64,000 bases of DNA from Rhyzopertha dominica (taxonomy: Eukaryota; Arthropoda; Insecta; Coleoptera; Bostrichidae), in contig QCXZ01000064.1 in the NCBI GenBank assembly GCA_025024175.1, positions 48,381,325 to 48,445,324 on the forward strand. Direction: 5' to 3'. The notes beneath the pieces are model-generated. The model saw nothing but the letters and a program-made list of their open reading frames with translations. It was not told the DNA's origin and searched no databases. The stretch's first letter is position 1, and each line of letters begins with the position of its first letter. The position numbers and the translations under genes are program-made. Below, one piece after another: positions 5,949-50,924 of the stretch.

Positions 5949-7035
5949 ACCACAGCATAGGGAAACCAGCAGGCGCACTTCGACCAAAAGTGCGCTCGAA
6001 GCATCCTAAGTTATGTTTCTGCCATATTCTCCGGATGCAGAGCGTCAATATCGTTCCTGCAGCGGTCGGGGAATTAAATTAAACATTATGTAAACGTACT
6101 GTTTTTGACCATTTTATTATTTTTATACAACAATTTTTTAAATCCGGATCTGGTCAGGCAATTGGGGATTATAACTTTTTTTTTTTAATTACGTAAAATG
6201 AATCTTGGAGTGCATATATATCTGAATATATATCTGAAATTCGAATCTTAGGAGTCACCGCCAACTTGTGACGTCTAGTGTCATGTAAACATTACCTAGG
6301 AGCGTGCTGTTTAATGGTGTAGCATCATTCTTGTATTGGAAAAGCTTTTGTGTGGTGTTTATTGAAAGGGCGGTGTAAGAGGCCGCACCAAAAAGTGATT
6401 TGTGAGTTTTATAAGCACCTATTATATATGGAAGACAAAACAAGTGTTGTTTTGTACATGGTTATAAAAGTATTTCAGTCAGTACAGTTAACAAAATTTT
6501 TGTAACTGTTCCTCGAGATTATCAACGTATGAAAAAGTTGTTTAAGGCCCCTAGACGCCGTAATCGCAAAGTTTGTTTTTCTGTTGTGAAGATCATCTTA
6601 ATTCTTACTGAAGTTTTATTATTCTTTTTGGGGTTACAAGTGTTAACCATTCAGTTTCCATTTTGTTATAGCTTGAAGAGGATATGAAAAATTATATGCG
6701 TTTTAAGTTGATAGAGGGAAATGTTATAATAAAGAACGACGTTGTTCCCCATATATTCGACTGTTAGCCAGACCGGAAAGGAGCTCCAAGAGCCCCGAAA
6801 ATATATGGCAGTTTATATTTATTCTGACCTCTAAAATAAATGTCAAGTTTAGGTGCTACCTATTAATATGCAATTTAATAAAATATAAATACATGGCAAA
6901 TACCCAATTGGCACGCGAGCATTATGACATCGGGTATCTATCCCCACTACAACCTCACCGTATATGGCGAAACATCACTTGCTAAGTCAAAGTGCCGCCG
7001 CTTGAGTTAGTCTGCTGGTTTCCCTATGCTGTGGT
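5949..7035. mobile_element. TIR element B, hosting repeat A
   Basis: A perfect 24-bp inverted repeat bounds this 1,087-bp block: 5949-5972, beginning ACCACAGCATAGGG, and its reverse complement at 7012-7035. Weaker symmetry extends inward to about 45 bp. The flanks read ATA on both sides (5946-5948 and 7036-7038), a possible 3-bp target duplication; that is short enough to be chance. No transposase is encoded. Most of the interior (6159-6910) is repeat A, which also occurs alone at 12156-13463 without these TIRs, so A probably inserted into B. Superfamily is uncertain; a 3-bp duplication would fit PIF/Harbinger. Confidence 0.7.
6159..6910 (+). repeat. Dispersed repeat A, copy 1 (internally deleted)
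   Basis: This matches 12156-13463 in reverse complement over nearly its whole length, with many scattered substitutions. Its ends read CAATTGGGGATTATAAC on the left and AAATACCCAATTG on the right, an 8-9 bp terminal inversion. Compared with copy 2 it lacks about 470 bp, with CTAA at both breakpoints of the longer copy. The 62-codon minus frame at 6255-6443 corresponds to nothing conserved in copy 2, so A is treated as non-coding. Confidence 0.8.
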
Positions 7036-9033
7036 ATAACCTTACCACATAAATACATGAGCCGCTTCTTTGCAATAACAGGTAATAGTAACAAGGTAAC
7101 TAAGCAATATAAAGTATGCCATCAATTTGTCATGCTACGCAGATTAAAAAAAAATAAACGTGTAAAAACAATAATTTTTAAAGTCAGGCTCTATATGGAC
7201 GCATGCCTAAAGCTAAATATGACCCTTAAAATTTCTCGTTCTCGTTTAGTTTAGTTTTTGGTCTCTGTAACATTACCTAAGTTGAAGACGTACCTTATAG
7301 TGAGAGCGTAGTTGTTTTGTTTCGATTACATAGAAACGACCCACGTATTTATGTGGTTATACATAGTCTTATCTTTAGGTATCTTATCTTTTCGTTGTAG
7401 CGTTAAAAGAGTGGTCCATTAACAACGAAAGGTCGACCTTAATAAATATTAGGATTAGTGAACACCATACTTTTTTCTTGTGTTAACAACCACAACGAAA
7501 AGTAACAACCAATATTTAAATGTTTGTTCTACCTGATCTACATCATCGTACCTTATTATAATAGCGATGCTGACACTTACTTATTATCTTGGTAGTAATT
7601 CATTTGGATCATGCATGTCTAGTTTTGTCCTTGTTGGTACTCTTCAGACAGAATGCCGAATAAAACAACCACAGCAGACACTATTGCCTATATCTCGGCG
7701 GGGAAAGCATGTTGAGAGCATCAGCGCTTAGATTGAATTTTCATTTATTTTGCACAAATCGCCTATAAGTCATCTAGCGAAGTGTTACGGCCGGTAAGTA
7801 CACGAGAAGCCCAGCGAAAAAATAGTTCAGTGGTAAAATTACTTTGAACGATAAATCTTTGTCATATACACTTTATGTAACTGCCTGATCTACTACGTAC
7901 TTAAAATACACGTGTCCACGTCAAATTTACGAGTGTATCAAGGATACAGCTACCCGGGACTTTTACTCGGTAGAATGCATAATGCGTAAAATTTTAGCAA
8001 ACTTTCACTCTTTACTCTTGATCCTTCGAAATCACTCTTACGTACCAGAACAGACAGCTTCACTCCCACGATTCGCCGTCCTCAATCCGAAAAGACGAGC
8101 TTGCAAGCTTTTATTAAGCTATCGTTATTTACTGCTTTTCGACGTTCCATTGTTTACGGTGTAATATTTTTTAGACGGCCCTCTTTTATGCGCGGTCGCC
8201 ATTCAGAATTTGACAAGAATTCAATTCTCGCTTCCGTGCTCGCAAATTCAGCTTCTGTATTCTGAATCCGATAGCATTTAACAAAGTTTGAAAATTCAAT
8301 ACGTGTACTTTACTCGCCACCACCGTCAAAAAATGGTAATAAACATCCGACATTTGCAGGTAAATGGGAATACAGGTTTTTAAATAATTTATTTTACACA
8401 TGAAACCTAGAGATACTAGGTGAGGAGGATGGATTTATTTTAAAATCTAAACCTAAACGTTGCTAAAAAATGTAGTGATTCTGTCAGAAAAAGGAGTGTG
8501 TACATGCTGAGCAAATAAGCTCAAGGGTTTTACAGCTTGAGATAAACATACTGGAACAACAACTTCAAATGTCAGCTATATTCGACTGGAAGGGCGTCAA
8601 CTCCGTCGCAGTCAGATTAGGGAAAATTGAGTAGAGTACGGAACATAACTCAAATTATTATGTGAGATACCTTAGAATTTTCACGATAAAAATATGGTCC
8701 CCATGCACAAAGGTGTGGTGACGTACAGCGACGCGAAAAAGGCATTTAAAGCCTACAATGGTTGCACCCTACTTCTGACCCTACCTGTTTTCCGTTTTTC
8801 TTATGCTAGCAGCTGAATATGTTTTGGTAAACGTTGTTTAGTGAACAGCTATAAAAATAAAGTTATTAGTACCGGTGTGACATTCCGAAGAGAGTATTGT
8901 TTAGTTTGGTTACAGGTTATACTGTAACTGTCCATAATGATTTGCAATTTGCAATCGATAAATTTCAGAGGTACTGAAACAAAATAGGCGTAGAAGTACA
9001 TAATATAAAACCACTATTTACTGGCTTCAACAG
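7036..9033. other. No gene recognised
   Basis: Short unsupported frames only (for example 7057-7254, 7982-8164 and 8186-8401). No terminal repeats or domain signals could be delimited. Confidence 0.55.
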
Positions 9034-10515
9034 CTGCGTTAAGTTGGACCAACCCAATATAATCTTTAATGTTTTCAAAACACCATGAATTAGTGCTGAT
9101 TTGTGCTGATAATTTTACAATTTGTTCAGGTGTCCATAATTAGTGACTAGAGGTTGAATAGGGATTGGTCTAACTTCATGCTGAGCAACAAGTGTTAGAG
9201 AATTAAAATTTTATTGTCAGTAATTAGTGCTCATTTGTGCTGATAATTTTATAATATGTGCTGATGTCCATAGATAGTTATTAGTGGTTGAATAGGGGTT
9301 AAGAAACTTCATGCAATGCAACCCGCGTTAGAAAAATTAAATTTTATGTTGTCAGTAATTGGTGCTCATTTGTGCTGATAATTTTACAATTTGTTCAGGT
9401 GTCCATAATTAGTTACTAGCGGTTGAATCGGGGTCGGTCCAACTTTACGCTGCCCAACCAACGTTAGTAAATTAAAAATTTTTACTGTCGGAAATTAATG
9501 CTCATTTATGCTGATAATTTTAGAATTTGTGATGGTGTCTATAATTAGTTATTGACAGTTGAATAGGGATTGGTCAAACTTCATGCTGCTCTCAGTAGTT
9601 GGTGCTCAATTGGTGCAATTCTGTGCTGATAGTGTCGTATGTTTAGTATCAACTTATAATATCTACTTTGCTATTATAACTACTTACAACGCAAATGGAT
9701 AACGGAAATACGTCCAAGAAGAAAACGAAGGATACATGGGAGTAACAAATGACAATAGTTTTTTAAACAATTTTTTAATAGTGATATAATATGTTGCAGC
9801 GGATAGTGAACATTCTGCACCAATTCTTTCTTTTAACTTGCATGTTGACAAAAATTCCAAAAGAGAATTACACAACCAATAATTATATTTACACCCACCA
9901 GTATAAATTCTAAAATTTTCAGAGTAAATAAGCAATAATTTCGGACAGCACAAAATTAATTTACTGACAGCGGTCACGCAGCGTTGCACTAATCCCTATT
10001 AAATTGCTAATAATTAACTATGTGTAACAGCACAGATTCTAAAATTACCAGCACAAATGAGCACTAACTATTGCTAGCATAAAATTATCTAACACGGTTG
10101 TACAGCGTAAAACTGGAACTGCTAACAATTAGTTATGGACACCACCACAAATTGTAAAATTATCAGCACAAATGGGCACTAATTACTGACAACATAAAAT
10201 TTTAATTTTCTAACATGGGTTTGGGCAGCGTAAAGTTTAATCAACCGCTAGTACCTAACTAATTATTGACACCAGCACAAATTGTAAAATTATCAGCACA
10301 AATGGGCACCAATTGAGCAGTAATTACTGACAAGAAAAAACTTAAATTTTCTAACACGGGTTGCACTGCGTGAAGTTGGGCCAACCCCTATTCAACCGCT
10401 AATAACTAGTTATGGACACCAGCATAAATTGTAAAATTATTAGCTCAAATTAGCACTAATTATTGGTGTCTTGAAAACTTTAAAAATTTGTTGGTTTGGT
10501 CCAACTTCACGCACC
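9034..10515. mobile_element. Foldback-like element: inverted arms made of ~135-bp units
   Basis: The left arm (about 9034-9640) carries four to five head-to-tail units with recurring blocks TGTGCTGATAATTTTA, GTGTCCATAATTAGT and GGTTGAATAGGG; block starts at about 9102, 9236, 9371 and 9507 give a period near 135 bp. The right arm (about 9990-10515) carries the same blocks in reverse complement. The outermost ends match as inverted repeats: TGCGTTAAGTTGGACC on the left against GTGCGTGAAGTTGGACC on the right strand. The centre (9640-9990) is unrelated and holds a 101-codon minus frame with no recognisable domain. Long inverted arms of tandem units are the hallmark of foldback/Galileo-type elements. 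I could not find a target duplication, so the edges are approximate. Confidence 0.7.
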
Positions 10516-12155
10516 TTAAACATACCTGTGAAACGACAAAGAAGGAAACATCGTCAGGCGAAACATAATTAGTCTACTAGTATATGATCGAGCTATTTGA
10601 AAATTCGTTAACGTGTGAAGACGAAGTTTGGGTTATAAGTTCAGCAAAGGAAAGCAAAATCACGCCAAACTTCAACCTGGTTTGATACTCATATACTCGT
10701 GAGGAACGCGGAAACTGGACAAGTTAACTAAGAAATACGATATACTGACTGGCATGAAGATAAGAACTCTTACTATTACTTGTTTATTTAAACAAAATTT
10801 GGTACACTTGTTTGTTTTTATCCAGAACTACGATAACAATCCAGTAATCACATTATGTTTGTAAGAAGTGGTACTTGTTACTGCCTGCCTAGGCAGCTCT
10901 ATTAGGAAACGAATCTTTGAGAATTTAACCAGTATATGTTAAATATACTATCCATACAATACAGAGTTGAAATTTAATCTTTAATAAGGTGACATTACGT
11001 CGTAGAAAATAAAATGAAGTACAATTGTAGAGTAACCAGGGTGTTTGCCTTTTTGTTTAATAGATTAATAATTACTTGCGTTTTTTTCAAAGCTTTTGCT
11101 CTCTAAATAACTGCAAGCATTTAATTGGAAAACAGAGATGGTAATGTATTATTAAGCGCTGTTGTTTAATTAACTATAGGCAACTCAACACCTACACGGT
11201 CATTTAGTTAATGGCGCGAATCCCTGAAATTATGTGAAATACAAACATACTGTCAATATAAATTTATTCAGCGATCCCAAACACCTCCGATTCCAGTTGC
11301 ATAAATCTGGTTTATTGGTTTGTGTTTTTAGAGTGTGTGATTTAATTGGAGTAAATGTCATGTGCTAAAAGCAAACATCTATTTTTGGTTAAGCTCAAAC
11401 TAATTACAAATGTTTTTCTGCGAATTATATAAGCAGGCTGAAGGACAGTATGTAAACTATACGTATAAATACACACACCGCATTTCGAAGGTAACTTCCG
11501 AAATAGAGCAGCCATCACCATAGAGTTAAAAAAATACTTGTAGTACAGATAATTCATCAACTGACCAATTATATTAAAGATCATACATGCTATAACCGTT
11601 ATAGTTTTACTACTTATTTTTATTTTACAGAGTCAAGGTATCTCTGTACGTTACATAATGTTAATATTCTGCAGTGTTGCGTTTACAGGTTTCATTTTTA
11701 CCATAAAGGTATAGTCACCTTGCTAATACATGTAATGTATAAATACAGACTTTAGGGTTATATAGCAGTAGTGATTAGGGTTCGTAAAGACGATCAAATA
11801 TCGACATTTCCTTGCCAACATTGATACTGAACGATACCATCCCATACTTACATAGAGCATCGCCATTTTTATACTCAAAGCATTATTTTCTCTCGTTGGC
11901 ATTAACTGACACGCACCAGAATATCACGGTGTTACCAGATCTAATCTTTTATCAGAAGATCTGCTTACCTTATTAGACTTACGTACACCGTTCTGTTTTC
12001 ATTTCGAAATCTTCTGTTTGATAAAATTCAGCGGCAGCCAGCAACAAGCAACAAATTAGAGTAATCGACCGCTTTTTATATTAATCGGTTGTTCTTAAGT
12101 TTCTAGGTAAATTATACTGCACAATGTATATTATGTACAAATTTTATTATGTCTT
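10516..12155. other. No gene recognised
   Basis: AT-rich sequence without supported genes. The 80-codon minus frame at 11342-11584 has no recognisable features. Confidence 0.55.
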
Positions 12156-13463
12156 TAATTGGGTATTTGCCATGTATTTATATTTTATTAAATTGCATAT
12201 TAATAAGGTAGCATCTAATCCACAAAACAGCTGTGACAGCTTATAAATTCGAAAAAATGGATCGTAAGGTGTATTTTTAATATAAAAAATGCGAATATTT
12301 AAAGGGACCGCCAAAACGCGAATATATTGGCCGTGACGTCAGGTGTCTTGTAAATGGCCGCTTGTTTAAATCTGGCGTCAGCGGGTCACGCGTCATCCTC
12401 AGCCCGTCAATTTATCAGTTTGTTGTTTGCGTTCATTTTGTAACAAGCGAATTAAAATATGCCAAGAAAAAGTAAAATACTTATGGGATATGACTTCTGA
12501 AGGCATGTTCATTGTTATGGAATTTGTGTACAGCGACGAGCGGTTCAACGCGGCGGAGATGAGGAACGTAAAAGCAACACAAGTGAGCTTTGTATTAAAT
12601 TAACGTAGCATTGATAATTTGATCACAGTGGGTTATTGGACACATACTATTTGTAAACATAAAAATGTAAGAATCAAAAGTGTACCCTAAACTTGACATT
12701 TATTTTAGAGGTCAGAATAAATATAAATTGCCATTTATTTTCGGGGCTCTTGCGGCTCGTTTCCGGTCTGGCTAACAGTCGAATATATGGAAAACAAACG
12801 TCTTTCTTTATTATAACATTTCCCTCTATCAGCTTAAAACGCATATAATTTTCCGTATCCTCTTTAAGCTATAACAAAATGGAAACTGAATGGTAAACAC
12901 CTATAACCCCAAAAAGAATAATAAAACTTACATTAAGAATTAAGATGATCTTCAAAACAGAAAAACAAACTTTGCGAATTCGGCATATCACGTCTAGGGG
13001 CCTTAAACAACTTTTTCATACGTTGATAATTTCGAGGACGGGTTACAAAAATATTTTGTTAGCTGTACTTACTGAAGTACTTTTATAACCATGTACAAAA
13101 CAACACTTGCTTTGTTTTCCATACATAATTGATACTTGTAAAACTACACAAATCACTTTTTGGTGCGACCTCTTACACCGTTCTTTCAATAAACACCACA
13201 CAAAAGCTTTTCCAATACAAGAATGATGCTACACCATTAAACAGCACGCTCCTAGGTAATGTTTACATGACACTTGGCGTCACGAGTTGAATAACCTTGG
13301 ATAGAAGCGTTTTGGCGGTGACTCCTAAGATTCGAATTGCAGACCTGAAATTCTCTACCTTCAAATATTTTTTTTTGTTTTTTCTTTTAATATGACGTAC
13401 GATATATATGCACTTCAAGATCCATTTTACGTAATTTAAAAAAAAAGTGATAATACTAAATTG
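12156..13463 (-). repeat. Dispersed repeat A, copy 2 (longer, inverted relative to copy 1)
   Basis: Reverse complement of 6159-6910 plus about 470 bp (12219-12690) absent from copy 1. The extra segment begins with an arm GGGACCGCCAAAACGC (near 12303) whose inverted counterpart GTTTTGGCGGTGACTCC lies near 13313. The symmetry continues into a GTGACGYCARGTGTC block on both sides, so this copy has internal inverted arms about 1 kb apart. The extra segment has higher GC and a TGACGTCA-like motif. No transposase frame is visible. It looks like a non-autonomous DNA transposon of unknown superfamily. I found no convincing target duplication. Confidence 0.75.
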
Positions 13464-23517: not shown

Positions 23518-24572
23518 ATACATTTTACTAGTTTCACAAATTACCACCGCTATAAAAGGTATATACTATAAAAGGAAAAAGGTTGTAGGATGATCGGCAG
23601 CAGCATCTTAGTCTGAATCCAATAAAAGCTCGCTCAAGAAGCAGGGCGCGCCTGGGTGGGGATGCACCGCTCCGAAGGCTTTTGATTCCAGTGCCTTTGA
23701 CCTTTCTCCGCATCAATTACTTTACGAGTTTGGTTCTAATATCCAACGAACTCTTGAAAGAGACCAGCAGCGACTTTTTATTCGCGAGTACGTACTGTTT
23801 AGTAATCCTTGAGCTATATTTTAAAGCGGTTATCAATGCTTTCTCTTGTCACAGCGCCTAGTCTAGCCTCCGCGCCACAAAATACCCAGTCCCTTCGGTT
23901 TTCATGGACCGACAAAGCAAACGCATGTTGAACATTATGTTCTAGAACTGTCGTTAAGTTAAGCTTAATGGCGAGAGGAATATATATCGGCATTTTGCGT
24001 CACAACTGCATACTGTCTCGACAGTTGCGGACGGAATTTACATAACTGCCATTAACATTTGGCGGTATAAATGAACAGAGAGCTAATCGCATGATCTAAA
24101 CCATTAGAAAGTTATTTTTTTGTGTACCTATAATAATAAGTATAGATAAGTTTTGTATGAGACTAAGCGAATTATTAGGAGAGGAAACGTACTAAAAATT
24201 ATCACTAAATCACTAATCAAAAATTTCCAAAATTAACCAAAACTTGATTTTCGAATGAGAAAAAGGCATTCTTAACTTAACTAATGTCCCCTTAAAGCCT
24301 ATAGTCAATCCGATTTTTTGCTTAGCTATTTAAACCGTTATGTAGGAAAACAGACATTATTGTCGCTGTAAAAGATTTGAGTATTTGAGAAACTGATATT
24401 TTGGTTTATTTTGAGGAGACCTTTTTATTTACGAAAGCTCCCATACCTAAAACAATAGATATTATCAAACCCAAACCTAGTAGAGATCTTTTAGGTGATA
24501 GGATTATCTGAGCACTGTTTATATTTTACATATTTTTTATGGAACGCTAATTTTTCTGAACAAAAATCAGGC
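23518..24572. other. No gene recognised
   Basis: Includes a short GC-richer segment (23580-23900) with a 60-codon minus frame (23534-23716) lacking recognisable domains. Nothing else identified. Confidence 0.5.
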
Positions 24573-24770
24573 TAAAATGCATATCTATGCTGTGCTGTCT
24601 GCACCGCAACCAACTGCAGATAGATCTATTTCGCTATCATTATAGCTCATCAGTGAAGTTTAGGTCTAGTGCAGATAGCACGGCATAGAACTGGTTTTGT
24701 CTATATACCAAAGGCTGCATTGATGAGCTATAATGATTTGTGCAGACAGCACAGCAGAGACATGCATTTT
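24573..24770. repeat. 198-bp imperfect hairpin
   Basis: The outer arms 24573-24603 and 24740-24770 pair with few mismatches (core GCTGTGCTGTCTGCAC). An inner pair, ATCATTATAGCTCATCA at about 24637-24653, is the reverse complement of 24721-24737. The left strand carries about 33 extra bases between its two arm blocks. The two overlapping opposite-strand frames seen here follow from this symmetry and are not genes. Possibly a very small MITE just upstream of the Penelope remnant. Confidence 0.6.
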
Positions 24771-24924
24771 AATATATGTCGGTTCTTGCCCGCTTGCAAT
24801 AAGTGCCGTGGGATCTGCTATCAAATTGAAGTAAGCAGGTGCATACCAATTTTTTAGTAGTAGATGCTGTAATGCTGATGATGTAGTAATGTGTAATGCT
24901 GACAGATGCATTGCCATCTAAATT

Positions 24925-24960
24925 CTTACCTAAAAATCAGGTTGCGCAATGTGTTGACAT
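24925..24960 (+). pseudogene. Penelope-like RT, 5' part, cut by the hAT insertion
   Basis: The plus strand reads KSGCAM just before the hAT insertion site. Joined by eye to the sequence after the element, it gives a GCAM-x-x-HLSPI then NLFMESF series, matching the G(V/C)AMGxPLSP block of Penelope-like reverse transcriptases. One or two frameshifts are needed. The last eight bases, GTTGACAT, are the target duplication of the hAT. Further upstream (24780-24920) I could not follow the RT reliably. Confidence 0.5.
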
Positions 24961-25001
24961 CAGTGATGGGCGTTTACACGTAAATTATAATTTTCTACGT
25001 T

Positions 25002-25115
25002 ACAGATGATACCTTTGTTATTTGGCCCCACGGTATGGAAGAGTTAAGGAGGTTTCTAAATAAGATGGCAATTGCAGCAGTAACTGTAGACAGTATTTTA
25101 TATGACATGGCATAA
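25002..25115 (+). pseudogene. Penelope-like RT fragment carried inside the hAT
   Basis: Immediately inside the left hAT end the plus strand reads DDTFVIWPHGMEELRRFLNK and ends in TAA at 25113-25115. The DD pair followed by TFVIWPHG and a Leu-rich FL stretch is the signature of the RT catalytic DD region of Penelope-like elements. The host Penelope copy around the hAT has its own DD region at 27536-27547 with a different sequence (YLDDILLFDQVN). This fragment is therefore from a different copy and must have been carried in by the hAT. About 36 codons remain. Confidence 0.7.
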
Positions 25116-25176
25116 ACTATTACTATATTTGGTTTTATTTACATTAGAATATAGTGTAAAAAACACCATTTCTTTA

Positions 25177-25204
25177 TTTTTTTATTCCATATGGAATAAA
25201 AAAA
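25177..25204. repeat. 28-bp perfect palindrome
   Basis: Seven Ts, ATTCCAT, its exact complement ATGGAAT and seven As form a perfect 14-bp inverted arm with no loop. It lies within the Pack-hAT candidate, about 300 bp downstream of the exon in the exon's direction. It could be a chance AT-rich palindrome, a cruciform, or the scar of a small insertion. Confidence 0.8.
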
Positions 25205-25504
25205 CAGGGTATCCCCTAGTGCTAAGTGTAAAAACTACTTGCTAGATTTAAGACTGCCGTTTATAGAAGGATAAAGTCCTTGCTAATTTTTTATTTGATT
25301 TTTTTAAAGCAATTGTTTCATACAAAAATGATAAATGTTTAGCTCAGAGAATCTTATAATATTAATTACTTCATACTTTGATTTTTGCGATTTAAAAATT
25401 GATTTAGTTTTTTTATACTTCTCAATTTTTGAATTTAACACCAAGACCACTTACATTGTTTTCCTTCTTTGCTTCATCATTCAACAAAACTATGCGTTAC
25501 TAAC

Positions 25505-25742
25505 CTTTGGTTGTACTTGGTTTGGATGCTGAAGGCACGGTAGGTTTAGCCCCTTGTACTTTGACGGCTGTCATCTGCTGCTTCATTTGTACGGGCGTCG
25601 CGGTGCGTATGGCTACAGGTGTTCTCACTTGACCGGGGGCAACGTTGCGCACCTGCATTGGTTGTCTTACGACGCCCGCCCTCACCTGGTTGGCCGGAAA
25701 CACAGGATGCAACGCGGGCGGTTGCGAACCGGACACGATGAC
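25505..25742 (-). CDS. Captured internal exon of an unidentified protein (Pro/Gln/Val-rich)
   Basis: On the minus strand a 238-bp open segment (79 codons plus 1 base) starts after the acceptor TTTTATCCATCACAG and ends at the donor AAG/GTTAGT. The frame stays open through both splice sites, to a stop just beyond the donor. The reading begins VIVSGSQPPALHPVFPANQV; later stretches are RQPMQVRNVAPGQVRTPVAI and KPTVPSASKPSTT. It is basic and rich in Pro, Gln, Val and Ala, without Cys, Trp or Asp/Glu clusters. Such composition suits a disordered segment of a nuclear or transcription-related protein, which is inference; I cannot name the gene. It is strikingly GC-rich against its surroundings. It lies wholly between the TIRs of the hAT at 24961-27431, so it is probably a transposon-carried copy of an exon whose parent gene is elsewhere. 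GTG at 25734-25736 is not a real start; this is an internal exon. Confidence 0.7.
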
Positions 25743-25952
25743 CTGTGATGGATAAAATGCAGTTTTTTCTTTTTCATTCTGGCTGTAATTGATGTATACC
25801 CAAGCAAGTTATTGTTATTTAAAAATTTATCTAGTCAGCTTAATTACAACAAAATAGTATTTTGTTTAATTAAGAATAAATGTAAAATAATAATAAAATA
25901 CAAAATAATATTGGCATTTGGGGGGTTTTGAGTGGTACTGATGATGAACACC

Positions 25953-27281
25953 CGTAGGCGTACCGAAGGGGGGCAAGGGAGAAGAATCTGCCCCCCCCTC
26001 CCTGGACCTGGGTTGCCAACTCTGGACCCTTCCAATTTCCCACACATTTAGCTGGTTAATTATGTGTGTACTCTATAAATTGTCTTATTTTCAAAATTGT
26101 AAATACAGTAAAATTTATAGGCAAGTGTATTTCACAATTTTCATCCAGAACTCATATTTAACCCTTGCAAATGACTTCTCTGATAAGTCAAATGGTTTCC
26201 AAGCTTAATCGATGACATGTGTGTTTTGAAGCTGTAACTACAACACTCTTGTTGTTACGAATCGTTGTCTTAGGGCTATCTTGGTCAGGATGAGTAATAA
26301 CACGATTTCTGCTTAGTTCAGCTCTTCTACTTTTTCCTATATATAAAGATTGTTCAACTAACTACTGTTATATAGAACCACTTTAGAATCTGTCATATAT
26401 TGGGTGATAACTCAAACATTTGTACCAAATTTCTAAATTCACATTACAATTTAATAATTAGTACAAAAAAAAAGCTAGAAATCCATTCGAACTCACGTTT
26501 ATAGTTTATTTAATATAAGTTTTAGGAATCCAGTAAAAGCATTAAAAGCACGAATTAAAACCCGGTGTGTTGTTAAAAATGCAATTAAATATATTTCAGT
26601 TTATTTAAATGAAGCTTAATTTCGTTAAAATATTAAGCAATCGGTTAATTTTTGAAAGCAATGCACTGGCAATCTAAGAAGGTTGGCTTGACGCATAATG
26701 CTGAGCCATTTGTCATTCTGAGATTTAATAATGTTAGTTATTCATCGAGTTTCTTTCCCTGAGAAGTTGAAACTGTACTAAAAGCGCATCGGTTAGTGCA
26801 TTAATCTTTGATATGTGTTAATTCTGAATCAGAAATCGTGCTCCTATTTTTAGAACTTTTAAGGTGAAATTTATGTTCCTTGGGTACTTCATATGATATT
26901 ATTATACACTATGTGGATCACGGATCTTTATTCTCCCAAATAAAATGTATGAACTCATTTTTTGTTAAACACGAGAACGATGCAGCTGAATGCGCCTCAC
27001 TTAACTAAGTTCATCAATAACGGAATTAGTAATAAAGGGGCTTTGTATGATCAGTGTACATAGAAAACATATACATAAATGATTTGGGTTTTTATTTCAC
27101 AGAAGATGTTTTAAGTCACCTTGCAGAAAATCCACGAAGATTATTCATGGAATAAATACTTCATTAATTACTTAAGTACCTACATCTCATAAACATTTAT
27201 GATTTCTATTTATGTTGAATTATATGCTACAGGACGTTCCTGCTTTGCTCCCCCCTAGACCAAAAGTTGGGTACGCCCATG
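25953..27281. mobile_element. Nested hAT element inside the Pack-hAT candidate
   Basis: The left end CGTAGGCGTACC and the right end (minus strand) CATGGGCGTACC form a 12-bp TIR with two mismatches. The flanks carry a perfect 8-bp duplication TGAACACC (25945-25952 and 27282-27289). Poly-G/C tracts with GGGGGGCAAG and GGGGGGAGCAAAG sit just inside each end. The element is 1,329 bp, AT-rich inside, with no transposase-like frame, so non-autonomous. Its terminal sequence differs from the outer hAT and from the hAT at 29597, so a different transposase probably moved it. It is younger than its host element. Confidence 0.88.
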
Positions 27282-27431
27282 TGAACACCACTAAAAGAAG
27301 TATATATTTCTAGAATTATGTTTGTTTACACAATGCTATTTTCTACAGTAGACTTTTAAGGTAAAATATTACATAGTTTACGCGTAGATAATAGCGTAAT
27401 TTACATGGCGTATTCTACGCGCCCATCACTG

Positions 27432-28010
27432 GTTGACATCTAAGTCCTATATAGCGGTCAATTTGTTTATGGAAAGCTTTGTTGAGGTAGCGACTAATAG
27501 TTTTCATTTTTAGCCAAAATGTTGGCATAGGTATGTACCTAGACGATATTTTGCTATTTGATCAAGTAAATTCTCAGTCGACACAAATTAAATTTGAGTT
27601 TTCCTTATGTGCGAGACCTTTCAGAAAAATTAAGGAGGATGCTTAGAAAGTAGCAGTTGTTTATAGTACATTTAATAATTTAGATAAAATTTTAATTTAT
27701 GTAATGAAGATATAATACATTTAGAAAGTGATGGTTTTAAAAAATTACTTTCTCTTGTGGCAAGTGTTACATAGGTCCGACTAAAAGAAAAGTAGGTACG
27801 CGTTTGAAAGGACACATACTTGCTACTTGGCTGTAACTCGTGTTTTATAAATACATGGCTGACTTTGATAAAACAAATTTTACATACAGAGGAATATTAT
27901 TACAAACGTCTGATAAAAGAAGGCATAGAAATACTAATATCTTTAATAGGGACTGTGAAAATTATGAATTGGATGATATTTTGTACTTTTTTATGAAGCA
28001 GATCGTGTAT
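27432..28010 (+). pseudogene. Penelope-like element, RT end and GIY-YIG endonuclease remnant
   Basis: After the hAT the plus strand resumes a Penelope-type RT: VNLFMESFVEVATNSFHF, a TAG, then PKCWHRY and, one frameshift later, YLDDILLFDQVNSQ, holding the catalytic DD pair (27536-27547). About 220 bp on comes CGKCYIG (27758-27775), followed by TKRKVGTRLKGHILATW. CYIG matches the YIG half of GIY-YIG and the rest fits the conserved Lys/Arg stretch of that nuclease, which Penelope elements carry C-terminal to the RT. It continues to about NRDCENYELDDI. Several stops and frameshifts make it inactive. Its 5' part lies left of 24961. Confidence 0.7.
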
Positions 28011-29596: not shown

Positions 29597-30800
29597 CAGT
29601 GGCGGCTCGTCCGGGTCGGCAGAATTTTGATCGAAGAAATTATTTTTTTTTCGTATTTTTATGTATATTTTGTTTTATTATGTTCAGATATCTTGAAACA
29701 GTTGGAGCGTATTTTTTTACATTACCATCAAATTAATAATTAGCCAAAATCACATTTTTACGGGTTATCCCGAAAAATTTACGCTACTCGGCAACCGTGA
29801 CTGGGCCGTGTATGTGTTTGTCATCCAAGCCCGTGATCCAAGCGCTGGGTCGGCAGACCACATCGTATAAGGAAGCAATAGCATCGTTTTCCTATGAGCT
29901 GAACAAAGACGCAACCCTGCGCGCATATTGAATCCCGAGGCGAAAATCGAGACTCTGCAAAGCCTGGGGCCGGCAGACAGCATAAAACATTAAAACGGAC
30001 TTCATCATTTATTTCAATTATTTCAAGTTTTTTTTTTTAATTAACCAATTATAGTTCTGTTTTCTACTGAGTATTACAAATTATCTGATTGACACCCTTT
30101 ACATGCTTACAGTTTTTTTTATAATCATAATTTAATTTTACGTATATATGTTTCTATTGAAGTTAATAAAGGAGGCCCGGCATTCATAATCGTCGGATTC
30201 CGAAAATTAATTTTGACATGTACGTTGAACAACAATTATATATATAGTTCAATACTGAAATCACGAAAAACTACCCGAATGTTCTACGAAATTTTTCATT
30301 TTTCCAAGATTATTGTAAGAGCTATCCTCTTAAATAAACAATTTTAAGCAGATACCTTCAAACATTTAACAGAATTAATTAAATACATGTTATAAATTTA
30401 GGCAATCTGAAATCATTGAAGAATTTCACACAAAAAGAAAATAACAAAATAAGTAAGCGCCAATACCCATATAATCGCTTAATGCTGTCTGCCGGACTTC
30501 CGAATATATCTTTGGATTGGGCTCGACATATATCGACTTCTCCTCACCGGTGCAGTACAGGTGCACGCTTAACTTTGAAATTATGAAGCTAGTTGTCAGA
30601 TTAGGCTATTTGGTACCAAATGAACTATCTTTTTAACTTGCGGCGATATGAAAATTTACAGAAGTAGCAAGTAATAAACAACAACAACTACGAGTATATA
30701 CAAAATTATTTACTAATTTATAAATAAATAATATTGACTAACTAGAGTGGACCAAAGTTTTTACTGCCGACCCAATAGAATTTGTCACCAGCCGCCACTG
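29597..30800 (+). mobile_element. Non-autonomous hAT element, perfect 8-bp duplication
   Basis: The ends are CAGTGGCGGCTCGT on the left and, on the minus strand, CAGTGGCGGCTGGT on the right, flanked by an exact 8-bp duplication ATTTCTGC (29589-29596 and 30801-30808). It is 1,204 bp with no transposase. A GGGTCGGCAGA-like motif recurs near 29613, 29850 and 29967 and, inverted, near 30765 and 30485; these may be subterminal transposase-binding sites. A relative in the opposite orientation lies at 53060-54572. Confidence 0.9.
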
Positions 30801-46970: not shown

Positions 46971-48953
46971 TAGTGCTGTCAATGGTTACGGTTAACCGGC
47001 TAACCGATTACGATATCACAATATTAATCGTAATAAGTGACCCTTTAATATCCGATAAAAATTAACCGGTTATGAAATCGGTTAAAAACTAATCGGTTAC
47101 GAAACCGGTCTAGATTTAACCGGTTCTGAAATAGGTGTTAATTAAACGGGTTAAGATTTAGTCGATTCTGAAACAGGTTAATATTTAACCGGTTCTGGAA
47201 GCTGTTCTGATATAACCGGTTCTGAAACCGGCTAAAAATGAACCGGCTATGAAAGCGGTATATATTTAATCGGTTCTAAAACCCCTTCAAATAACAGTTA
47301 TTAATCGGGTTATGAATGATACGCTAAGGCTCATAGACGAAAACTACCACGAAAACAAATTTCCCGATAACGATAGCGAGTAGCGACCGTAAAATTGATT
47401 TTCAGTCAGATTGTGAAAAACTAGTAGGTACGTGTAACGTCCTTAAAATTGGTTAATGATTAATAAGTTTGGCATGTTAGGCAAACTACGAAGGTATAAT
47501 TATGATGTTAATTCTGTGACTCTTAGACAGAAGCTGATATGTCAACAAATCCAGTAGTTTCAATTTTGTTGTAGACATGTCGTTGCAGATCTCCATTTTG
47601 ATGTGGCAGAAGCATTATTTTAAATACCAACATCATTTGGCAGATACTGATATGTCACATGCCACACTTCGCGATTTTTTGACATATCAGCTTCTGCCTA
47701 AGAGCCTAAGAGCTACAACGGATATAATCGAGAGTTTATCATTTCCATTGAAAGAAGCTTTACCCAATCGCTTAGACTTTTAACATCTGTTGCTCAACAC
47801 ACAGTGATCATTATTGACCTTGTTATTTAAAACCTTAAAACTACTATATGACCACACCAATTCTTGCACCAAAATCGGAAATGCAGCCGTTCTAATTTTA
47901 GGCTGACTTATAATTAGTGTTGGGTGTGCCGTTACAGAGGTATTCGTTCAAAAATGAGCTGGTTAGGTCTTTTTTTGTGGTAACTATACTAACATTAACA
48001 ACACTAATCTGATATCAAGTAATTTATGAAATACACTTCAAAATCACAGTCCAACGTGAGTGTCTCTCAGAAATAAAGTATTAAAAATGTCATGGCTAGA
48101 AGCACAAAACTCTTAAATCCAGAGCAGTTTGGAGCAGTTATCATTGTGACAATAGGTACCACCTCCAGAATAAAAGCCTCCCAGCGCCCTTCATGGCCAC
48201 TGTCACTGCTACTTAATAATACACTATACTGGGTGAATCGTAAATCCAAAGTCGCTATGTAGTATACATATATATGGTGGTAGACTGTTTTCATTGGGAT
48301 TGCAGAATACAGGCTAAACGGGAAGGGGTAAAGAAACACTAGTCTAGGTATCACGATCTTTTTTTTTCAATCATAATCCAATAGCATCATAAAGAGATCT
48401 TGGCCAACTTATTTCGACTTGACGTTCGGGTGTTTTTTAAATTATTGACTGATTAACTCCCGTATGTCGGTTGTTATACTAACCGTTGAAAAACTATTAA
48501 GTCTGAAACCAGTTAATATTTAACCAGTTTCTAAGCCGGTTAAGATTTAACAGGTTCTAAAATCGCTCAAAATAAGCAGTTATGAATCCAGTTACGAAGA
48601 ATACACCAATGCTATTACTGTTGGACAATATAAACCGATCATTATTGAATTTGTTATTTAAAACCTTTAAATTAGTTTATAAGCACTCCAAATGTTTGTA
48701 TATTTTGTAATAGTAAAGTCTTGATGTATATGTATATCAGCCAGTTAGCCAAAAGACTTATTAATGGGTTAACATAAACCGGGTCACCTTAACCGATTAA
48801 CCGGTTAGCATAAAACGGTTAAACAGCTAGCATAAACTGGTTCAGCTAATTTAAACCGGTGAACATTTTTTATGAAAACTTGTTATTTTTTGTAACCTAT
48901 GAAATTTGTTGTAACCGCCAAACCGGACAGAGCGGTTTCTATTGACAGCACTA
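46971..48953. mobile_element. TIR element filled with 27-bp CCGGTT repeats (hAT-like ends)
   Basis: The ends are inverted: TAGTGCTGTCAATGG on the left, TAGTGCTGTCAATAG on the minus strand at the right. TAGTGxTGTCAA is the style of many hAT termini, but the flanking 8-mers (AGAGCATC and ACTAGTAT) do not match. The left interior (about 47005-47290) holds around ten units of 27 bp, consensus near AACCGGTTCTGAAACCGGT plus an AT tail. A second field lies at 48490-48600 and a third, with a different spacing, at 48770-48880. A segment with GTTATTTAAAACCTT occurs twice in direct orientation (47805-47870 and 48637-48710). No transposase; the 95-codon minus frame at 48067-48354 has no domain. Confidence 0.7.
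47519..47705. repeat. Inverted repeat with ~32-bp arms
   Basis: The left arm 47519-47549, with CTTAGACAGAAGCTGATATG, pairs with 47673-47704, with CATATCAGCTTCTGCCTAAG. The loop is about 120 bp and contains further partial copies of TGATATGTCA. It lies in the core of the CCGGTT-repeat element and may be a small insertion. Confidence 0.7.
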
Positions 48954-49281
48954 ACTAGTATCTCAGTGTTTTATTATAGAACATAGTAATAATTGGATCT
49001 ACATTTATTTAAACGCTGAAAATTATTTTTCTTACATATTCATATTTCGACAGAAAATACTTACCTATATCGAGGAGAAACTCTCTCCACTTTGGAAGGA
49101 CCTGTACGAAAATAGAGAAAGAAAATCTAGCCAGCCGGAAGTTCTTTTTCACCAAATATTATAACTTTGGTTATGGTTAGTGACGTTTGATATAAAGTTG
49201 ATTTGAAAGCGCTTTGCGGGAAATATGACTTCTGTTTGCAGTGTGTGTACTTTTGATTATTAACGAGTTAAAAAGTACATA

Positions 49282-49400
49282 CAGGGTGTTTCCTAAGTAA
49301 TCTAAAATATTATATGGGGCGCTTTGTCACTCAATTTTAGGACGAAAAGTTCATATAAACATGTGTGGTAAGTCTTGTTGTTAATGAGATACTGGGTGTT
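49282..49400. repeat. Left 119-bp TIR of the DD41D element
   Basis: Near-identical inverted copy of 50745-50863. Inner edge TACTGGGTGTT echoes the outer CAGGGTGTT. Confidence 0.92.
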
Positions 49401-49411
49401 TTATTATTTTA

Positions 49412-50533
49412 TTAGAAGCAACAACATGTGTTAAACATAAAGATAAAATAGTACATTTCAAGCATATGTTCAAAATGTCCACCTGCAGCTAAAATGCAAG
49501 CATCTGCTCGATGTCTAATTGATTGCCGAATACGTTCGAAGATACCAGGATTGTTACGAATAACATTACAGCCTTGTATGATACGATTTTGAAGATCTTG
49601 TACGTTTAATATCGGGGTTGTGTAAATGAGCGATTTCAAATATCCCCACACACAAAAATCCGGAGGATTGTGTCCCGGTGATCTAGGGGGCCACGGGTGT
49701 GGAGATCCTCGTCCGATCCAATGGTCTGGAAAAACGTTATTTAAAAACTCGCGTACAATCACTGAAAAATGTGGAGGAGCTCCGTCATGCATGAACCACA
49801 TGCGCCTTCTAATAATAAGAGGTACATCTTCCATAAGAACTGGAAGTTCATTTTCTAGAAAATTAAGGTATGTCTCACCGGTCAACCGCGCAGGAAGGAA
49901 AAATGGTCCTAGTAAATAATCATCGATGATGCCAAGCCAAACATTGACAGAAAATGTTTGTTGAAATCGTTTTACACTTATGGCATGTGGATTTACATCT
50001 GCCCATATGTGGTTATTATGAAAATTCATAATGCCATGTCTTGAAAAGTTGGCTTCATCCGTATACAGAATATTGGCAGCAAAATTGGGATTGTTTGCGA
50101 TTTTATTTAAAATCTATTGGCAATACTGTATGCGAAGCGGATAGTCAGTAGGTAGCAAATGATGTACACGTTGAACGTGATATGGATACAATAAGTTATC
50201 TTTTAAAATATTCCAAACAGTTCTGTTACCAACATTTAGTTCATGAGCAATTTTTCTGGTACTCGTTTCTGGTTGTTGATCAATCACTTGAAGAATCTGG
50301 TTTTCCAATTGTGGAGTTCTCACAATTCTGGGTCGTCCAATAATATTCTTTGATTTGGCAAAAGTTCCAGTTTCTTGTAAACGAATATGTAGCTTAGTAA
50401 ACGTATCTGAACATGGTAAACGATTATTTGGATAACGCTGGGCATACATACGTCTACCCTCTAAGGCATTACAATTTGCTAATCCATACAAACAGTGCAT
50501 ATTAGCCATTTCAGCATTAGTAAACACAGGCAT
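49412..50533 (-). pseudogene. DUF4817/DDE_3-type transposase with one in-frame stop
   Basis: A single reading frame of 374 codons, broken only by TAG at codon 140 (50114-50116), where related proteins have Trp in a CQWLL-like motif. The N-terminus, MPVFTNAEMANMHCLYG with ALEGRRMYAQRYPNNRLP, matches the DUF4817 DNA-binding domain. A second helix-turn-helix with RKIAHELNVGNRTVWNIL follows (about residues 92-110). Catalytic residues by count are Asp159 (YTDEANF), Asp250 (MHDGAPPHF) and Asp292 (NPPDF), giving 41 residues between the last two: DD41D. The usual SPDLNPLDF reads SPGHNPPDF here, which may impair activity. Cuts and pastes its element at TA in active relatives. Full length is plausible for the family, so this is a nearly functional copy. 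Confidence 0.88.
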
Positions 50534-50744
50534 CGTTGTTAAGTTAACACAAAAAGGTCGTATTTATAAAAATTTCTTGTTCGTTTTTTGCGTTGGTTTT
50601 TAGGTTTGACACAGTATTTGTCAACGTTACTCCAAAGGCCACTTAGAATAAACATGTTTTTTCGTATAACTTTTAAAAGCCAGTAGCGTCACCAGAAAAA
50701 ATTAATTTCAAATACACTCAGACCTGATTTATTACAAACAATTC

Positions 50745-50863
50745 AACACCCTGTACCTCATTAACGACAAGACTTATCACACATGTTTATATGAACTTTT
50801 CGTCTTAAAATTGAGTGACAAAGCGCCCCATATAATATTTTAGATTACTTAGGAAACACCCTG
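50745..50863. repeat. Right 119-bp TIR of the DD41D element
   Basis: Inverted copy of 49282-49400; inner edge on the minus strand reads TACAGGGTGTT. Confidence 0.92.
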
Positions 50864-50924
50864 TATACATAACAGAATTTTACTCAGGAAGTTATCCCTT
50901 GCAGGGTTTTGTAACAATTTGTTA

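Follow-up and report, generated by a model that had tools for sequence, protein, structure and literature searches.

A TAF4 exon within a single-copy Pack-hAT element of Rhyzopertha dominica, probably acquired by repair inside an older hAT copy

The hAT-like element E1 of Rhyzopertha dominica is a real, recent, single-copy Pack-hAT that holds exon 5 of TAF4. It belongs to a known class of gene captures and adds one unusual mechanistic clue. The element lies in a stretch of 64 kb (hereafter the window; C64:48381325-48445324) of a genome of 479 Mb in 138 contigs, and its donor lies on C3, so that donor and acceptor are on different chromosome-scale contigs. Because the donor, the acceptor, the two junctions and undisturbed siblings can all be read, the capture can be followed base by base (Table 1). 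We consider it probable that E1 was made by in-place repair of an older hAT copy, in the course of which TAF4 DNA was copied into the element.

Table 1. Features of E1, its cargo and its surroundings (positions in the window)
Feature	Position	Strand	Evidence or remark
Element E1 (hAT-like, with captured block and nested E2), 2471 bp	24961..27431	.	TIRs, TSD, sibling copies
Left target-site duplication (TSD) of E1, GTTGACAT	24953..24960	.	identical to 27432-27439
Right TSD of E1, GTTGACAT	27432..27439	.	identical to 24953-24960
Left TIR of E1, CAGTGATGGGCG	24961..24972	+	12/12 bp match to right TIR
Right TIR of E1	27420..27431	-	perfect 12/12 bp
Retained left hAT end of E1, 44 bp	24961..25004	+	43/44 identical to L024
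Captured block (TAF4 intron/exon 5/intron), 773 bp	25003..25775	-	donor C3:8481645-8482418
End of Penelope-like RT fragment (from TAF4 intron), first ~59 bp of block	25003..25061	+	partial matches
Start of downstream TAF4 intron, donor site GTTAGT	25003..25504	-	donor alignment
TAF4 exon 5 copy, 238 nt, phases 0 and 1, open frame	25505..25742	-	donor alignment
End of upstream TAF4 intron with splice acceptor	25743..25775	-	donor alignment
Extra A at right junction	25776..25776	.	absent from donor and from siblings compared
hAT body of E1 right of captured block	25777..25952	+	sibling comparison
Left 8-bp duplication of E2, TGAACACC	25945..25952	.	sequence
Nested hAT-like element E2, 1329 bp, ends CGTAGGCGTACC / CATGGGCGTACC (two strands)	25953..27281	.	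same-site insertion in 2/7 siblings
Right 8-bp duplication of E2, TGAACACC	27282..27289	.	sequence
Right end of E1	27290..27431	+	genome search
Penelope-like repeat, left flank	24434..24571	+	74% identical to repeat beside donor tract
Penelope-like repeat, on to E1 insertion point	24921..24960	+	flank alignment
Penelope-like repeat, right of E1	27440..27560	+	flank alignment

The ends of the element are as originally predicted: the TIRs and the 8-bp duplication are perfect. When the window was scanned for exact inverted repeats at most 6 kb apart and flanked by exact 8-bp duplications, two 12-bp pairs were found, against none in each of 12 windows simulated under a Markov-1 model; 10-bp pairs numbered three in the window and one across all 12 simulations, and 8-bp pairs five in the window against 0-2 per simulation. 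A chance origin is not expected for TIR and TSD pairs of the quality of those in E1. Short repeats inside the element (25382-25408/25809-25835 and others) were judged to be chance. The TIRs of hAT elements are short, start with a CAGTG-like motif and are accompanied by subterminal repeats; in E1, CTACG/GTAAATTA motifs were recognised by eye at both ends. From its TSD and TIRs E1 is assigned to the hAT superfamily, apparently as a non-autonomous member. Its longest stop-to-stop frames measure 102 aa (the exon), 86 aa and 75 aa, and no Pfam family was found in the exon frame, which was the one scanned.

The hAT family of E1 is well represented in the genome. A search with the right end of the element gave 1343 first-look candidates, and among the 40 places scored are the window itself at 100% and 39 others at 94-96% identity. 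Seven siblings fetched from these matches were compared, five short (e.g., L024 373-1261, 889 bp) and two long (e.g., C43, 2113 bp); an eighth and more diverged copy, L020, was met by chance in a 10-kb sample. All seven siblings display the ordinary family interior, which runs from hAT base 44 to the TTCTGG motif and measures 515 bp in L024 and some 543 and 549 bp in the two long siblings. The copy in the window lacks about 515-550 bp of this interior and has the TAF4 block instead. Exact 8-bp TSDs flank five of the eight further family copies (C136, C75, C64:59.1 Mb, C43 and L020); the TSD of the C42 copy has 7 matching bp at the cut edge of the sequence, that of the C1 copy is imperfect with a 2-base length difference, and the left end of the copy at C64:28.65 Mb lies outside the fetched sequence.

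Two of the siblings are long because E2 sits in them at the same site as in the window. In C43 both edges of E2 are altered, and its duplication is therefore no longer exact. At the E2 site, all five short siblings (L024, L027, L030, L031 and L032) read TGAACACC-AGAAC(A/G)CC, which looks like the hAT excision footprint of an E2 that left E1.

The captured block differs from its donor by three substitutions and one 1-bp gap over its whole length. Its exon is the GC-rich minus-strand segment of the original prediction, and the features then described are all present: G+C amounts to 57.6%, against 27.8% and 32.4% in E1 on either side, the splice sites have consensus form (acceptor ...CATCACAG/GTC and donor AAAG/GTTAGT on the minus strand, the slash marking the exon edge), and a single frame stays open through 79 codons and one base, the other frames containing 6 and 1 stops on the minus strand and 4, 1 and 1 on the plus strand. 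The lone substitution between the exon copy and its parent is synonymous. That prediction had overlooked both the extent of the captured piece beyond the exon and the nested element E2. At the left junction the hAT sequence reads ...TTACA/CGCG and the donor ...TATGCA/GATG, with a 2-bp microhomology, so that the last two bases (CA) of the 44-bp left end are common to hAT and donor. At the right junction the donor sequence ...TTTTTC is followed by the 1-nt filler A and then by hAT TTCTGGC.

The 238-bp exon has two matches in the genome, the window and C3:8481678-8481915 (2/2 candidates scored), and because of these two places, window and TAF4, we regard E1 as a single-copy Pack-hAT. A search with the whole block, in which 40 of 1076 candidates were scored, yielded 42 stretches; two are full-length and the other 40 are partial. 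Of the partial matches, 34 are confined to the first ~59-65 bp, with 89-95% identity, and represent a dispersed repeat. The expectation that other hAT copies would carry the exon was not borne out, since none of the seven siblings has it and the exon places genome-wide are the window and the parent. Several copies with different TSDs, which would mark a multicopy Pack element, were likewise not found: the one exon place besides E1 is the parent, and the candidates scored for the block (40 of 1076) include its two full-length places and no other.

By contrast, the proposal that a non-transposase exon was captured from a gene elsewhere proved correct, and the parent carries this exon in the same phase within an apparently complete TAF4 gene on C3. 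Two exons downstream of the match contain Pfam TAF4 (PF05236; E 1.5e-36 and 1.1e-25), and one downstream donor exon matches PDB chains named TFIID subunit 4 (E 2.8e-27). A sub-threshold TAFH match (E 0.0086) comes from the exon that precedes the captured one. Exon-like frames of 50 aa or more with a GC content above 0.44 follow each other in order (by eye) from the N-terminal start to the last exon over C3:8472536-8488358, the first and last exons being what we take them to be from the layout of the protein. The gene looks intact. The reading frame continues across the splice from exon 4 to exon 5, and one base remains at the end of exon 5, which gives phases 0 and 1. P0001 was the sole relative that protein searches found (64% over 42 residues). 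Its resemblance to the window begins exactly at the acceptor, and its upstream residues match donor TAF4 exon 4. PDB matches to the exon peptide had E 0.21 or worse and were judged chance, and no relatives of the exon in the viral collection or of P0001 in the genome collection were confirmed. No TIR of E1 was seen in the 9.9 kb surrounding the donor; the element is absent from the parent, which sets the copy apart from a segmental duplication. A native host exon in place is ruled out, the parent gene being elsewhere, and the capture of a TAF4 exon by a hAT element is a clear and confirmed case.

The comparison of substitutions points to a capture younger than the element that holds it. Between the window copy and the closest fetched sister (C64:28654620-28657000), 6/318 outer sites and 47/1315 E2 sites differ. 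Changes private to the window copy amount to 0/305 outer columns (8 sequences) and 21/1095 E2 columns (3 sequences), i.e., 21/1400 in the element against 3/773 in the captured block (Fisher p = 0.017). Because the block differs at fewer sites than the element, we interpret the E1 copy as probably older than its TAF4 cargo, a signal that comes from E2 only.

E1 sits inside a degenerate reverse-transcriptase repeat, and the TAF4 intron holds another copy of the same repeat. We take the repeat to be Penelope-like from its motif layout (CAMGSP, YADDTFVIWPHG); Pfam RVT_1 matches it at E 1e-4 and 22.5 bits, against a cut-off of 29.6, and a PDB search returned nothing better than E 0.84. The captured tract starts within the intron copy, at a site some 98 bp past the point that E1 occupies in the window copy, and the orientation is the same. 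Alignments of the E1 flanks with the donor repeat score 66 and 55, whereas none of 300 random 600-bp pieces exceeds 28. The chance of a same-orientation start at most 150 bp from the collinear point is about 5e-4, calculated post hoc and with every candidate taken as a copy; the repeat density behind this figure is 1628 first-look candidates in 479 Mb, 40 of them scored. Among those scored, 39 copies elsewhere in the genome reach 84-87% identity with the donor repeat, the window copy about 75%, and similarity alone cannot single out the two repeats because these 39 copies are closer to the donor's. Neither the 420-bp donor repeat nor the window's own repeat has a DNA match in a sample of about 310 kb of other sequence (170 kb random, 40 kb C64-flank, 30 kb TAF4-neighbourhood, 10 kb hAT-copy and about 60 kb from the rest of the window), and a wider 870-bp repeat query gave one match of 55 bp there, to another part. 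Distant protein-level RT matches among the random loci fetched (L021 and L013, 33% and 40% identity) belong to other RT elements. On the left of E1 a further insert splits the repeat as far as about 24920. Pieces of this insert (24572-24920), which is probably a MITE, also occur near TAF4 in both orientations (L003 6922-6996 and 7722-7861); it was not linked to the capture and was set aside.

In the course of events that we favour, a hAT copy that contained E2 and belonged to a common and apparently non-autonomous family would have inserted into the Penelope-like repeat on C64, and a break or stalled fork would later have arisen in the interior of that copy. Repair would then have copied the 773 bp from TAF4 on C3 in place of roughly 515-550 bp of the element, switching into TAF4 at hAT base 44 via the CA microhomology and leaving the extra A on switching back. 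We infer that E1 was already at its C64 locus when TAF4 was copied, and that the repeat common to flank and donor intron helped to choose the template. That repeat homology itself made the choice, the flank repeat pairing with the copy in the TAF4 intron and synthesis running on into the exon, is a more tentative suggestion; such pairing of two repeat copies could stand in for the missing proximity of donor and acceptor. The junctions, with 2-bp CA on the left and a 1-nt insertion on the right, have the form left by gap filling, and note that microhomology is present at the left junction alone, where 2 bp are weak evidence. The donor is not near the acceptor (C3 vs C64), which is less usual under gap filling, where closeness is a bias and not a requirement.

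Alternatively, the capture may have depended on transposition (FoSTeST-like or by aborted repair elsewhere), and the finished Pack-hAT would then have jumped into the Penelope-like repeat and made the present TSD. This we regard as rather unlikely. The perfect TIRs and TSD of E1, the large size of its family and the distance between donor and acceptor, which parallels multicopy Pack-TIRs in the available portions of Tan et al. 2021 (PMC8277862), agree with such a move. However, only one TAF4-bearing copy was found, and transposition-dependent capture leaves unexplained why the donor tract starts in the flank's repeat at a near-collinear position. In-place gap filling keeps the older TSD, and a perfect TSD therefore does not prove that the exon travelled with the element; a cut-and-paste move following the capture would yield the same structure. 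A chimeric assembly, in which TAF4 sequence was wrongly joined to a hAT copy, would fit the single occurrence and the 17 N bases scattered across the window, but none of these lies within E1, copy and parent differ by three substitutions and a gap, and the junctions fall precisely inside a single hAT copy whose two ends and TSD are intact, which makes an artefact very improbable. The two outcomes named in advance as fatal to the capture, an exon that is an autonomous hAT's own coding sequence or TIRs from two different elements, are practically ruled out: the exon is TAF4, with a parent, and not transposase, and complete siblings of 876 to 2113 bp have both ends, with exact 8-bp TSDs at 5/8 further copies.

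Under in-place repair, E1 compares closely with the single-copy animal Pack-TIRs, for which the available portions of Tan et al. 2021 (PMC8277862) infer mostly gap filling, with a median microhomology of 2 bp and donors within 15 kb in 56.9% of the gap-filling cases. In E1, as in Pack-TIRs, a host gene fragment is enclosed by the TIRs of a single element, and the parental copy of the fragment is unique. Like the Pack-hAT class of that paper it is single-copy, has hAT TIRs and a unique recent parental copy, and like other single-copy Pack-TIRs it combines a multi-exon gene fragment with introns, a 2-bp microhomology and a 1-nt filler. It differs in the size of the block (773 bp vs a median of 224 bp), in a donor on another contig, and in a donor tract that begins in a repeat also flanking the acceptor. 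The filter applied in that study, which rejects parents with a TE at 100 bp or less, would have removed E1, the Penelope-like repeat crossing the edge of the donor tract; the rule is a screening filter and not a defining feature. The same portions of the paper report no Pack-TIRs in its insect and bird reference genomes. Its multicopy Pack-hAT-N8_XT of the frog likewise holds a gene fragment within a hAT element, but is found on three chromosomes with three distinct TSDs, whereas no second copy of E1 was found. In what was accessible of Gisby and Catoni 2022 (PMC8903248), plant Pack-TYPE elements resemble E1 in TIR-bounded captured coding DNA and the 8-bp hAT TSD; they are numerous, with a proposed gain by tandem insertion and re-mobilisation, whereas E1 is one element with an exchanged interior. 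Duplications formed by repair within TEs (PLoS Genet. 2009, PMC2671141, as far as its available text extends) show the same copying of a donor into a TE break with microhomology and filler, but mostly within 5 kb of the donor, unlike E1. No paper on E1 or on a TAF4 capture was found in a search of open-licence papers.

The proximity model leaves the choice of an unlinked template unanswered. E1 is a very young Pack-hAT, and the repeat shared by its flank and its donor gives a testable idea of how such a template is found. Were the choice of template by repeat homology general, dispersed intronic repeats would direct DNA transposons to the genes that they capture, and surveys discarding parents with nearby TEs would have missed such captures.

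The TAF4 exon copy is most likely a non-functional passenger. The original prediction that the exon is now able to spread and to enter new transcripts by splicing found no support, as no second copy was found and the exon, its 238 nt not being a multiple of three, would shift the frame if spliced into a coding intron. We consider it improbable that the exon is used, i.e., transcribed from a flanking promoter into chimeric or TAF4-matching RNA. Its splice sites are intact and its one change is synonymous, and the available portions of Tan et al. (PMC8277862) report chimeric transcription for at least 30% of the Pack-TIRs that were profiled in three species. Against such use, the length is indivisible by three, no host gene was recognised nearby (6 of the 163 listed ORFs scanned with Pfam), and the youth of the capture alone accounts for the intact frame.

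Several other structures were noted in the window. A further hAT-like candidate lies at 29597-30800, with TIR CAGTGGCGGC and TSD ATTTCTGC. At 49279-50866, inverted ends of 131 bp (94%) surround two adjacent long frames, one with a sub-threshold match to a Tc3-type transposase HTH and a DUF4817 match, the other with no Pfam match; this element is probably Tc1/mariner-like. A stretch of five TTAGG units had no match in the 479-Mb assembly. A large inverted repeat spans 6262-13289, its arms of up to 143 bp being about 6-7 kb apart with 96% complementarity, and at 47044-48572 repeats are built on AACCGGTT-like cores with a spacing of mostly 27 bp.
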